NCBI RefSeq assembly: GCF_000620045.1
Contig: NZ_JHVH01000009.1
Span: forward strand, 62,001 to 126,000
Source: Halomonas halodenitrificans DSM 735
GTDB lineage: Bacteria > Pseudomonadota > Gammaproteobacteria > Pseudomonadales > Halomonadaceae
Direction of reading: 5' to 3'
Length of the DNA stretch: 64,000 nt
Shown here piece by piece: positions 52,898 to 56,998 of this stretch. Position 1 is the stretch's first letter. Each line of letters starts with the position of its first letter. Below the pieces are notes generated by a model, which did no database searches, was not told the origin of the DNA, and worked only from the letters and a program-made list of their open reading frames with translations. A program made the position numbers and the translations under genes.

Positions 52898-54127
52898 ATG
52901 ACAAGACGAATCTTGATCCGCGCCACCGGCGTGGCACGGCCGGGTCAGCTGGCCGGACTGGGCAAGGCACTGGCGACAAGCGGCGCGCGGCTGCTGGACA
53001 TCAACCAGAGCGTGACCTTCGGCATGCTGTCGCTGGAGGCCCTGGTGGGCCTGGACCGCGATAGTGACCTCGAGGCCGCACTGGCGGCGGCGGGTGATGA
53101 GCTGGGCCTCGACGTCCAGGCGATTCAGGTCAGCGCCGAGGATTACCAGCGCTGGAGCAGCCAGGCCGGCCGGCCACGGCTGATCCTGACGCTGCTGGCG
53201 CCGCATTTGCCCGCAGGCATCCTGGCCGAGGTGGGCGCGCTGACCGCCGAGCATGGGCTGACGGTGGAGCTGATCCATCGCCTCTCAGGCCGAGAGCCGC
53301 TGGATGGCGGCGCGCCTCGCGACCACGCCAGCATCCAGGGCGCCTGTGTGGAGTGCTGGCTGCGTGGCGACGAGGTCGATCTCGATGCGCTACGCGAGAA
53401 GGCGCTGGAGCTGGGAGCCATGCACGGTGTGGATATCGCTATCCAGGAGGATTCCATCTGGCGCCGCCATCGTCGGCTGGTGTGCTTCGACATGGATTCC
53501 ACGCTTATAAAGGCCGAGGTGATCGACGAGCTGGCGAGGCGCCATGGCGTCTATGACGAGGTCGCCGAGGTCACCGAGCGAGCCATGCGCGGCGAGCTCG
53601 ATTTCCAGCAGAGCTTTCGCGAACGCATGGCCAAGCTCGAGGGGCTCGACGAGGCGGTGCTGGCCGAGATTGCCGAGGCATTGCCGCTGATGGATGGCAT
53701 CGAGCGCCTGATGACCCAGCTCAAGCGCCTGGGCTATCGCACCGCCATCCTTTCCGGCGGCTTCACCTACTTCGCGCGTCACCTCCAGCAGCGCCTCGGC
53801 TTCGATGAGGTCCATGCCAACGAGCTGGTGATCGAGAACGGCAAGGTGACCGGGCAGGTGCGCGAGCCGATCCTCGATGCCGACCGCAAGGCCCTGCTGC
53901 TGGGCGAGATCGCCACCCGCGAGGGGCTGGCCATGGAGCAGACCATCGCCGTAGGCGATGGCGCCAACGATCTCAAGATGCTGGCCGCCGCGGGACTGGG
54001 TATCGCCTATCGCGCCAAGCCGCTGGTGCGCGCCCAGGCTCGTCACTCCATCTCGACGCTGGGCCTCGATGCCGTGCTCTACCTGATCGGCTACCGCCAA
54101 GGCGACCTGGAGGAGGCCGGGTCGTGA
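52898..54127 (+). CDS. serB: Phosphoserine phosphatase SerB
   Basis: Predicted 409-residue enzyme for the last step of serine synthesis. The N-terminal part (about 1-180) has two ACT-like regulatory regions; the HAD core opens with CFDMDSTLIKAEVIDELAR near residue 198, and GGFTYFARHLQQ and GDGANDLKMLAAAGLG follow. Length and layout match the long (Pseudomonas-type) SerB. Its stop overlaps the start of the channel gene by four bases. Confidence 0.94.
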   Translation: MTRRILIRATGVARPGQLAGLGKALATSGARLLDINQSVTFGMLSLEALVGLDRDSDLEAALAAAGDELGLDVQAIQVSAEDYQRWSSQAGRPRLILTLLAPHLPAGILAEVGALTAEHGLTVELIHRLSGREPLDGGAPRDHASIQGACVECWLRGDEVDLDALREKALELGAMHGVDIAIQEDSIWRRHRRLVCFDMDSTLIKAEVIDELARRHGVYDEVAEVTERAMRGELDFQQSFRERMAKLEGLDEAVLAEIAEALPLMDGIERLMTQLKRLGYRTAILSGGFTYFARHLQQRLGFDEVHANELVIENGKVTGQVREPILDADRKALLLGEIATREGLAMEQTIAVGDGANDLKMLAAAGLGIAYRAKPLVRAQARHSISTLGLDAVLYLIGYRQGDLEEAGS

Positions 54128-54948
54128 GCGTAAGCTTCGATACCTGGCGCGACCGTTTCGAGCGACTGCGCGCCAACAAGTTTTTCGAAACCGCGGTCAT
54201 CGGCATCATCATTGTCTCGGCACTGCTGATTGGTGCCAAGACCTATGAGGAGACCAGCCGCTTCGAGCAGTGGCTATTGATGCTGGACGTGGCGGTGACG
54301 GTGTTCTTCCTGGTGGAGATCCTGATCCGCATGGCCGCGGAGCGGCGCCTGCGCGACTTCTTTCGCCGGGGTTGGAACGTCTTCGACTTCCTGATCGTTA
54401 CTGCCAGCCTGGTTCCCCTGGACGACTCGGAGGTGGTGTTGCTGGCTCGCCTGCTGCGCATCTTCCGCGTGCTGCGCCTGGTATCGATGATTCCCGAGCT
54501 GCGCATGCTGATGGCGGCGCTGGTCAAGTCGATTCCGCGCATGGGTTATGTGGCGCTGCTGATGTTCATCATCTTCTACATCTATGCGGCGATCGGTAGC
54601 TTCCTGTTCGCGGATATCGACGACTTCCTGTGGGGTAATATCGCGACCGCCATGCTGACGCTGTTTCGCATCGCTACCTTCGAGGACTGGACCGACGTGA
54701 TGTATGCCACCCAGGAGGTGCACGCCTGGAGCTGGCTCTACTACCTGACGTTTATCTTCCTGACCGCCTTTATCTTCTTGAACATGATGATCGGCATCGT
54801 GCTCGACGTGATGCAGAAGGAGAGTGTGCAGATGGAGATCGAGAGCGGGGAAGGGGAGGCTGCCGAGCTGCATGGCCTGCGTAATGACGTGCGCGAAATG
54901 CGTGATCAGCTTGCACGGATGGAGGCCCTGTTCGAACGCAGGAGTTGA
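54124..54948 (+). CDS. Voltage-gated cation channel (bacterial Nav-type)
   Basis: Predicted 274-residue six-helix channel subunit that would form tetramers. S4 carries arginines at 109, 112, 115 and 118, every third residue. The pore loop has the selectivity-filter motif T185-F-E-D-W-T-D191, the place of TLESWS in NaChBac-type channels; the extra acidic residues resemble those engineered into the calcium-selective CavAb. S6 is LNMMIGIVLDVM and a C-terminal helix (about 245-272) may be the tetramer coiled coil. Start is GTG 54124, overlapping serB. Ion preference is inferred. Confidence 0.88.
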   Translation: MSVSFDTWRDRFERLRANKFFETAVIGIIIVSALLIGAKTYEETSRFEQWLLMLDVAVTVFFLVEILIRMAAERRLRDFFRRGWNVFDFLIVTASLVPLDDSEVVLLARLLRIFRVLRLVSMIPELRMLMAALVKSIPRMGYVALLMFIIFYIYAAIGSFLFADIDDFLWGNIATAMLTLFRIATFEDWTDVMYATQEVHAWSWLYYLTFIFLTAFIFLNMMIGIVLDVMQKESVQMEIESGEGEAAELHGLRNDVREMRDQLARMEALFERRS

Positions 54949-54979
54949 CAAGGCCCTTCAGGCCTGATTCTCTAGAGTC

Positions 54980-55030
54980 ATGAAATTGACCGCGTACGAC
55001 CTCGACCTACGACTACTAGCGCTAGCCTGA
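54980..55030 (+). CDS. leuL: leuA leader peptide (leucine attenuator)
   Basis: A 16-residue ORF, MKLTAYDLDLRLLALA, precedes leuA by 260 bases. Six residues are leucine, and four of these use CUA (codons 10, 12, 13, 15), a rare codon in this GC-rich genome. Such clustering is expected of a peptide that stalls ribosomes when charged leucyl-tRNA is scarce. TTGACA at 54945-54950 could be the -35; a convincing -10 and ribosome site are lacking. It was found by eye as it is too short for standard gene finding. Confidence 0.75.
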   Translation: MKLTAYDLDLRLLALA

Positions 55031-55236
55031 GCGCTGGCGGTGCCGCCTGCATCGCCGAGTCACTGCTCCTCACCCTGGAGCCCCGGTCGTAAAGAGGTCG
55101 TACCATGTCACCCATACCCGTTATCACATCCAGATTCCACTTCCCGGTTGTACCGGTGTCGTCTCCCGATGCCGATACCCGCCGAATCATGATCCTTCGT
55201 GCAGCGCCCCGACCCGCTTTCGGCCGTCGGGGCGCT
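54994..55236 (+). promoter_or_regulatory. leuA attenuator region
   Basis: Bases 54994-55003 (GTACGACCTC, inside the leader peptide) are exactly complementary to 55094-55103. Further down, AGCGCCCCGAC (55203-55213) and GTCGGGGCGCT (55226-55236) form an 11-pair hairpin followed by a short, imperfect T-rich stretch. Ribosome stalling in the leader could disrupt the first pairing and alter folding ahead of the hairpin. The antiterminator partner was not identified. Confidence 0.55.
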
Positions 55237-55291
55237 GTCGTTTCCGAACGCCAGTCCGCCTGACGCCCTGTCCCTTGAGGAGAACGCACCC

Positions 55292-56998
55292 ATGATGCTC
55301 GATAATCCTGCCGCCAAGTATCGTCCCTTCGTCGCCGTGGACCTGCCCGATCGTCAGTGGCCCAGTCGCCGCATCGAGCAGCCACCGATCTGGACCAGTG
55401 TCGATCTGCGCGACGGCAACCAGTCGCTGATCGACCCCATGGACCAGGAGCGCAAGCAGCGCCTCTTCGATCTGCTGGTGAAGGTCGGTTTCAAGGAGAT
55501 CGAGGTGGGCTTTCCTTCCGCCTCCCAGACCGACTACGACTTCGTGCGCTCGCTGATCGAGGGTGATCTGATCCCCGATGATGTCACCATCCAGGTGCTG
55601 ACCCAGGCCCGCGACCACCTGATCGATCGTACCTTCGAGGCACTCGAGGGCGCCAAGAGCGCCATCGTGCACGTCTACAATGCCACCGACCCGATGTTTC
55701 GGCGTGTGGTGTTCGGCGTCGACAAGCCCGAGTGCATCCAGATCGCCGTGGGGGCGACCGCCCGCATTCGCCAGCGCATGGAGGAAGCATCGGAAACCGA
55801 CTGGACCTTCCAATATTCGCCGGAGCTGTTTACCACCACCGAGATGGACTTCGCCAAGGAGATCGTCGAGGCGGTCATGGACACCTTCGGTGCCAGTGCC
55901 GACAAGCGAATGATCGTTAACCTGCCGGCCACGGTCGAGGTGGGGACCCCCAACAACTACGCCGATCAGATCGAGTGGTTCTGCCGTAACATCAAGAATC
56001 GCCAGGCGCTGATCGTCAGCGTGCACCCGCACAATGACCGAGGAACCGGCGTGGCCGCCGCCGAAATGACCCTGATGGCCGGCGCCGACCGCGTGGAAGG
56101 CACCCTGTTCGGCAACGGCGAGCGTACCGGCAACGTGGATATCGTCACCATGGCGATGAACATGTACACCCAGGGGGTGCATCCGGCACTCGACTTCTCC
56201 AATATCACGCCGATCATGCGTGAGGTGGAGTACTGCAATCAGCTGCCGGTTCATCCGCGCCACCCCTATGTGGGCGATCTGGTGTTCACTGCCTTCTCCG
56301 GCTCGCACCAGGATGCCATCAAGAAGGGCATGGTCGAGCGTCGGGCCAACCCTGACGCCGTCTGGGATGTTCCCTACCTGCCCATCGATCCCCTTGATGT
56401 GGGCCGCAGCTACGAGGCGGTGATTCGCGTCAACAGCCAGTCCGGCAAGGGGGGGATCTCCTACCTGCTGGAGCAGGAGCATGGCATCGAGCTGCCGCGC
56501 CGCCTCTCCATCGAGTTCAGTCAGGTCGTGCAGGAGGTGGCCGATCGCACCGGCAAGGAGATCACCTCCGAGATGATCTACCATGCCTTCGCCGATGAGT
56601 ATCTCGAGCAGACCTCTCCCTTCGGTCTGGTCAGCCATCGTCTCTCCTCCGAGCCCGATAGCCCGACGGTCAGCCTGGAGGCGACCATCGAGAAGCACGG
56701 TGAGCGTCGCACCATCAGCGGTCAGGGCAATGGCCCGCTGGCGGCCTTTATCAAGGCCCTGGAAAGCGCCGGCGATGACGTGGAGATCATCGACTATCAC
56801 GAGCATTCACGGGGCCAGGGGTCCGACGCCGAGGCAATTGCCTATGTGGAAGTACGTATCGATGGCGAGGCGGTATTCGGCGTGGGGTCCGACGAGAGTA
56901 TCACGAGCGCCTCGATGAAGGGCGTCATGAGCGCCATCAACCGCAAGCTCTCCACCCAGGCACCGGCGGCCAATGTGACCGCGGCCTCCTTAGCTTGA
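55292..56998 (+). CDS. leuA: 2-isopropylmalate synthase
   Basis: Predicted 568-residue enzyme that condenses acetyl-CoA and 2-oxoisovalerate in the first committed step of leucine synthesis. The TIM barrel (about 30-320) has [15 protein letters not shown], the metal-binding [14 protein letters not shown] and [14 protein letters not shown]. The C-terminal LeuA dimer domain (about 430-560) is the leucine feedback site. This is the longer, type-2 LeuA. TTGAGGAGAA precedes ATG 55292; the frame continues upstream through the leader hairpin but is not coding there. Confidence 0.95.

Follow-up and report, generated by a model that had tools for sequence, protein, structure and literature searches.

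Leucine supply appears to control leuA, in the 64,000-nt stretch of DNA analysed here (the window, in whose positions all coordinates are given), through a two-ORF relay attenuator, a reading that we hold at a probability of about three in four from sequence and modelling. It is built on comparative and computed evidence: a conserved core of CUA codons in a first small ORF (ORF1), a fixed spacing between promoter and ATG, an open and leucine-poor second ORF (ORF2), a covarying pairing between the two, and a hairpin inside ORF2. From these we infer the start of transcription, the translation of both ORFs, the response to leucine, termination and antitermination, which would be linked as follows. 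Transcription would start at or next to the ATG of ORF1, and ribosomes would load on the 5' AUG. In ample leucine, a ribosome would clear the CUA codons and leave ORF1, whose codons 5-8 would then pair (P1) with the Shine-Dalgarno sequence of ORF2. With ORF2 silent, the hairpin at 55202-55237 would fold and transcription would end before leuA. If charged tRNA-Leu for CUA runs short, the ribosome would halt at codons 10-13, covering the 5' arm of P1, and ORF2 would be translated; it would be readable even during starvation, as almost no leucine is needed before the hairpin. The ribosome on ORF2 would run across the hairpin sequence and prevent its folding, letting RNA polymerase enter leuA.

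A probable leucine leader peptide with a conserved CUA core

54980..55030, + strand: ORF1, leucine leader peptide MKLTAYDLDLRLLALA, 16 codons
55007..55018, + strand: regulatory core CTA CGA CTA CTA, codons 10-13, conserved in relatives
55022..55024, + strand: fourth CTA, codon 15, lineage-specific (7/61)
55292..56998, + strand: leuA, 2-isopropylmalate synthase, the putatively controlled gene (Pfam HMGL-like, IPMS_D2, LeuA_dimer)

An earlier note on this DNA had proposed that a small ORF between a channel gene and leuA, with CTA at codons 10, 12, 13 and 15, is a leucine leader peptide in which rare CUA codons cluster beyond chance. On rereading, the letters (ATG AAA TTG ACC GCG TAC GAC CTC GAC CTA CGA CTA CTA GCG CTA GCC TGA) match exactly, and Pfam gives Ion_trans upstream and the leuA domains downstream. 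CTA is indeed rare, accounting for 4 of 239 leucine codons in five window genes and for 10 of 2147 across 61 leuA genes. The binomial chance of at least four CTA among the six leucine codons of ORF1 is ~1.1e-6, uncorrected for how many small ORFs could have been inspected; together with conservation in relatives, this makes chance clustering unlikely. It is conservation, beyond the binomial figure, that settles that ORF1 is real.

That conservation emerged from the comparison of Halomonadaceae leuA leaders that the same note had suggested. Loci were chosen by LeuA similarity, the best 80 of 320 relatives plus the window giving a first set of 81, with record titles of Halomonas, Billgrantia, Vreelandella or Halovibrio. 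The motif CTACGACTA (CTA-CGA-CTA) lies upstream of leuA in 61 of the 81 loci, and in frame within a short ORF in all 60 that have the promoter in hand; L029 was excluded from promoter and leader counts owing to a contig end. A third CTA follows directly in 55/61 loci; at least three CTA are present in 58 of the 60 complete leaders, and four in 18. Thus the run of CUA codons is conserved, with one correction: the three-CUA core stands as a shared feature, and the fourth CUA, at codon 15, does not. Within the whole source genome GAYCTACGACTA is found once, at this locus. With the CTA codons kept at the locus, the identification of a leuA leader peptide is supported, and ORF1 is very probably a leucine sensor for leuA. 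The earlier reading was incomplete, having overlooked the promoter abutting the ATG, the leucine-poor ORF2, the pairing between the ORFs and the terminator-like hairpin.

The core also contains a rare arginine codon, CGA (55010-55012), between its first two CUA codons. This codon is kept in 61/61 leaders and may slow the ribosome or serve RNA structure.

Spread and loss of the element

In the remaining 20 of the 81 loci, CTACGACTA is absent upstream of leuA and the whole element is missing. There, leuA begins only 10-61 nt 3' of a long upstream ORF, a spacing that leaves no room for it. Judged by eye from its tail, this long ORF is the channel gene, with which leuA is probably cotranscribed in these loci (L012, L018-L020, L022, L026-L028, L031, L034, L038, L045, L061, L068, L069, L071-L073, L077 and L079, titled Vreelandella, Halomonas or Halovibrio). 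All of them fall on one side of one branch of the LeuA tree (support 93, SH-aLRT only), most simply explained by one loss; the element was thus probably lost once in their ancestry, as far as the tree tells.

A covariance model of the element, R1, matched 113 of 250 genomes of the family; in a sample of 390 genomes from the order it matched 8, every one of them from that family. Both scans used strict filters by which weak matches are lost. Of 30 loci from a further search, three belonging to the family and one cut by a contig end were set aside, and none of the other 26, all outside the family, has CTACGACTA within 450 nt upstream. A looser promoter-CTACGACTA pattern is found in 121/250 family genomes; some of the extra matches are plainly not leaders, and a reversed control of the pattern also matches in a number of genomes. 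Forty of the 113 R1 matches made up a second set, comprising 38 of the 40 matches from other genera and 2 of the 73 from the window's own.

Several loci at the edges of this distribution deserve mention. Three members of genus g20 missed by R1 (G104:C20:62734-62804, G122:C2:92389-92465 and G126:C20:355677-355753) have the promoter-CTACGACTA pattern with a divergent start and look like leaders. L136 (genome G010), from a family member that R1 does not match, comes with a pair of LeuA-like proteins that share 86% and 51% identity with that of the window. In L147 (reverse complement), from another family, an unrelated leucine-rich small ORF, MNSHNTLTLLLTSLLGLL, is a candidate independent leader; it lies upstream, 317 nt from where the leuA match begins.

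A promoter that abuts the leader ATG

54945..54950, + strand: TTGACA, with a 17-nt spacer in 60/60 complete first-set loci
54965..54973, + strand: extended -10 region TG-A-TTCTCT, hexamer conserved

The promoter layout is conserved as TTGACA, 14 nt, TG, one base, the hexamer and then the ATG, the hexamer being TTTTCT in 34 and TTCTCT in 19 of the 60 loci. An in-frame ATG lies 6 or 7 nt past the -10 in 60/60 first-set and 40/40 second-set regions (6 nt in the window), so that promoter and ATG spacing hold in 100/100 regions, 95 of them distinct; in ten regions a second ATG stands directly behind the hexamer. Given the usual spacing between a promoter and its start site, an ATG placed 6-7 nt past the promoter implies that transcription would start at or beside the A of the ORF1 ATG, and the ORF1 mRNA is probably leaderless.

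Both common hexamers lack the usual A at position 2 and may require the TG extension or an activator. A consensus scan returned no promoter here; we dismissed this result because its rule demands A at position 2, so that TTGACA-N17-TTYTCT falls outside it.

A second ORF free of stops and poor in leucine

55105..55263, + strand: ORF2, 52 aa, leucine-poor, spanning the hairpin and ending 26 nt past it
55202..55237, + strand: terminator-like hairpin CAGCGCCCCGAC...GTCGGGGCGCTG, 12 bp, tail TCGTTTCC, inside ORF2

The ATG of ORF2 (55105) is preceded by a GAGG Shine-Dalgarno sequence. Pooling both sets, without five second-set rows that duplicate first-set loci, gave 94 sequences, and in all 94 the ORF2 frame is stop-free up to the hairpin: its 3059 codons include no stop, whereas the other two frames have 84 and 93. 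Leucine takes up 54 of these 3059 codons (1.8%), against 403/3054 (13.2%) and 242/3031 (8.0%). The two sets agree. In the first, the ORF2 frame is stop-free in 61/61 sequences whereas the other frames are interrupted in 41 and 38, and leucine occupies 32/1941 codons against 220/1938 and 145/1923. In the 33 new sequences of the second set, which was retrieved by a model ending two codons into ORF2, stops number 0 against 24 and 38, and leucine 22 of ~1118 codons against 183 and 97. Sequence by sequence, leucine is scarcer in the ORF2 frame than in the average of the other two in 89/94, with 4 ties, and the same comparison on representatives gives 50/54 at 80%, 29/30 at 70% and 10/10 at 65% identity.

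Against a position-specific expectation (61 sequences), leucine in ORF2 stands at 0.20, the lowest of all amino acids, and 24 stops would be expected where 0 are observed. Along the ORF, leucine makes up 1.7% of codons before the hairpin, 4.8% inside it and 4.2% after it, leaving out L115, which has no ORF2 stop in the fetched stretch. L100 and L120 were left out of the ORF2 counts since the script found no Shine-Dalgarno sequence; inspection by eye shows open ORF2 frames of 56 and 72 codons, respectively. Leucine does occur in ORF2 of L120, as it does in L025 and L134. The in-frame loss of both stops and leucine makes ORF2 look translated, and translated under leucine scarcity; that it is translated seems highly probable from this constraint.

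What ORF2 would be translated for is a separate matter. It could be coupled translationally to leuA, or its peptide could be active itself, the hairpin then being no terminator. ORF2 does overlap the leuA start in 18/61 loci, as coupling might have it, but the distance from its stop to leuA varies from -14 to 80 nt; its peptide sequences are widely divergent, and a Pfam search with the window's ORF2 gave no match. We find this explanation barely plausible.

Before the hairpin (55105-55201 and homologues), ORF2 is also rich in valine (11.4%) and isoleucine (6.8%), against means of 5.6% and 3.4% in the other frames, an enrichment that is smaller against position-specific composition (1.42 and 1.21). 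This is possibly a check on the supply of the other branched-chain amino acids, in which case ORF2 might fire only if leucine alone, and not all of them, is short.

Predicted pairing of ORF1 with the start site of ORF2

54994..55003, + strand: P1 5' arm GTACGACCTC, spanning ORF1 from the third position of codon 5 through codon 8; predicted partner of the ORF2 ribosome-binding site
55094..55103, + strand: P1 3' arm GAGGTCGTAC, the Shine-Dalgarno region of ORF2; pairs with ORF1
55036..55056, + strand: P3, local hairpin GGCGGTGC/GCATCGCC between the ORFs; 98.8% of cells paired

In the minimum-energy fold of 54980-55260, GUACGACCUC from ORF1 codons 5-8 pairs with GAGGUCGUAC at the ORF2 Shine-Dalgarno sequence; the fold, hairpin included, has z = -5.8. 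Other clades reach the same pairing with other letters, as in L037, where UUUCGCCACCUC faces GAGGUGUCGAAA with one mismatch. Swapping partners among 59 sequences, a test that is independent of alignment and takes no account of relatedness, gave -19.3 kcal/mol for the ORF1/ORF2 duplex with its own partner against -15.1 with permuted ones; 0 of 10000 permutations were as low, and the own partner beat the swap mean in 58/59 sequences.

An alignment of 58 sequences (A1, without the duplicate L006) points the same way. L080, in which an out-of-frame ATG precedes the leader ATG, was kept out of the P1, alignment and folding sets. P1 cells are paired in 81.8% of cases against 33-42% when one side is slid and 73.6% in shuffles; P1 was proposed from these same sequences, so the slid control somewhat overstates its excess. 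Cells changed on both sides number 68 against 27.8 in shuffles. Counted by pairs, both-side change is not above shuffles (4 against 5.3), nor are further pair types in excess (213/500 shuffles as high), and P1 is frequently unpaired at columns 18-20, 24 and 25. As for the other helices, 4 of the 7 pairs of P3 show changes on both sides, and a third helix, P2, is weakly supported (76.3% paired). On the ORF1 side, P1 falls for the most part within the 24 nt ahead of the CTA core (-24 to -1); four predicted duplexes, those of the window, L002, L066 and L081, run into the core or past it.

To follow the gate, a ribosome was modelled along ORF1 in 92 sequences, on a transcript that stopped 35 nt into ORF2. 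To open the start site of ORF2 takes 18.3 kcal/mol without a ribosome and 16.5 with one at the ORF1 stop codon, but 6.9, 7.3 and 9.6 with the A site on the first, second and third CUA, respectively. With the A site anywhere between the seventh codon ahead of the core and the second CUA, the cost stays at 6.1-7.3 kcal/mol, and the stop state exceeds the CUA state by more than 2 kcal/mol in 92/92 sequences. This profile puts the CUA core at the last positions where a paused ribosome keeps the gate open. Unmasking of the ORF2 Shine-Dalgarno sequence by a stall is thus borne out by computation. When the fold is extended to the hairpin, the stall raises Shine-Dalgarno accessibility modestly, from a median of 0.15 to 0.35; the gain exceeds 0.3 in just 11/92 sequences, and accessibility is above the stop-codon state in 74/92. 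A ribosome on the ORF1 codons before the core opens P1 too, and the specificity of the gate would come only from the leucine dependence of ribosome dwell time.

The hairpin and how it would be overridden

In the relatives listed, ORF2 contains a GC-rich hairpin of closely similar sequence, which in several lower-GC relatives is followed by a clean T run, GTTTTTCGTT. The window's own tail is a poor U tract, and the tract past the hairpin is weak in 60/94 sequences, with only 4-5 T in 12 nt. In all 61 first-set sequences ORF2 ends 11-128 nt past the hairpin; 32 of the 33 new second-set sequences also have their stop past it, the other one being stop-free in the fetched stretch. From the ORF2 ATG to the hairpin there are 86-164 nt (median 100, first set).

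A classical leuL-type attenuator would also have a CUA-rich leader and then a terminator-like hairpin before leuA. A stall on ORF1 would in that case favour an RNA antiterminator, with ORF2 a by-product of sequence constraint. Such a device gives no reason for the frame-specific loss of stops and leucine in ORF2, and no antiterminator was seen in thermodynamic folding of 92 sequences, where mean hairpin pairing merely goes from 0.98 to 0.96 with the stall. Since folding with ORF1 masked leaves the hairpin intact, we rejected an alternative antiterminator as the main mechanism, and we regard the classical scheme as decidedly improbable. With the hairpin intact under the stall, relief must come from elsewhere.

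The simplest source of relief is translation of ORF2 through the hairpin, and from sequence we judge it probable that this is what lifts termination. Translating ribosomes have in fact been measured to repress an intrinsic terminator near a stop codon in E. coli (PMC4824070). The same source adds that a terminator is less likely to be repressed when it lies in the first 100 bp of an ORF, and argues that ribosomes are unlikely to catch RNA polymerase within that distance (PMC4824070). Set against this 100-bp limit, the 100-nt median between ORF2 ATG and hairpin means that a pause or a slow polymerase may be needed.

The same relay could have Rho for its off-step, acting on untranslated ORF2 RNA that is C-rich and G-poor and shielded when ORF2 is translated; the hairpin would then merely mark or strengthen the stop site. 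ORF2 before the hairpin does contain 34.9% C and 23.2% G (61 sequences), the weak U tracts fit, and in E. coli topAI repression of translation leads to Rho termination, relieved by toiL stalls (PMC12121999). Against Rho stands the GC-rich hairpin that the listed sequences have inside ORF2, followed by a clean T run in several relatives of lower GC content, and we think this version unlikely. An off-step at the hairpin itself is the likelier form of the relay.

An Rfam search at E up to 5 gave three matches far below gathering scores, dismissed as chance; one of these weak matches is ROSE_3, on the opposite strand of the hairpin.

What the relay would mean

In textbook amino-acid attenuators a single leader ORF works with two competing hairpins. 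In this element one amino acid, leucine, seems to have been stripped from a second ORF by selection, which leaves a direct evolutionary record of when ORF2 has to be translated. This gives a search signature: in-frame depletion of the sensed amino acid upstream of a terminator could find other relay attenuators without experiments. Beyond that, a gammaproteobacterial family seems to have a conserved leader peptide that is probably leaderless, and Halomonas, a genus used in biotechnology, a candidate leucine switch.

Comparison with known systems

The enteric leuL leader is short, lies before leuA and has clustered leucine codons, rare CUA among them. The present element resembles it in placing a leader ORF with clustered codons for the end product, and then a terminator-like hairpin, before leuA. 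It differs in that a second, leucine-poor ORF spans the hairpin and ORF1 is probably leaderless. The hairpin is conserved, with a clean T run only in some members, and an antiterminator that excludes the terminator under a stall is absent as far as thermodynamic folding tells (92 sequences), so that we do not class the element as a leuL member. Rfam, searched over 54000-56000 at E up to 5, gave no match to a leu leader.

In E. coli pyrBI the terminator lies within the leader ORF, and a ribosome that follows closely keeps transcription from terminating; the sensor is UTP-dependent pausing. Here too an ORF overlaps a terminator-like hairpin, its translation being deduced from frame-specific constraint, but entry to that ORF would be gated by a leucine leader. 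Two leader peptides in series are found in ermA, where erythromycin induces the resistance gene by translational attenuation. The ermB leader peptides are likewise two short ORFs in series, and differ from ours in serving erythromycin-induced translational attenuation of a resistance gene (PMC8274638). The pyrBI leader is mentioned in PMC4824070.

Two further systems share the logic of the gate. In the actinobacterial LEU element a run of leucine codons pairs with the leuA Shine-Dalgarno sequence, with a candidate pseudoknot, and its authors doubt classical attenuation (PMC1262725). The likeness is that the coding RNA of a leucine leader pairs with a Shine-Dalgarno sequence, whereas here it is RNA mostly just before the CUA core that is predicted to pair, and its partner is that of ORF2; a leucine codon run pairing with the Shine-Dalgarno sequence of leuA itself was not found at our locus. 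In toiL/topAI a stall on an upstream ORF reshapes the ribosome-binding site of the next ORF, whose translation decides termination, as we envision here; that system differs in sensing antibiotics, using Rho and having the gene itself as its second ORF (PMC12121999).

The open-licence literature that we searched describes no Halomonas leuA leader and no two-ORF leucine relay. To our knowledge, no described system couples a sensor ORF with another ORF that has lost the amino acid being sensed. We lean towards a class of attenuator in which a leaderless, leucine-rich sensor ORF gates a leucine-purged actuator ORF, and in which the actuator's ribosome, not an antiterminator, admits RNA polymerase. 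The parts have precedents, and the system would be a form of ribosome-mediated attenuation in which what is new is the sensor joined to a purged actuator ORF.
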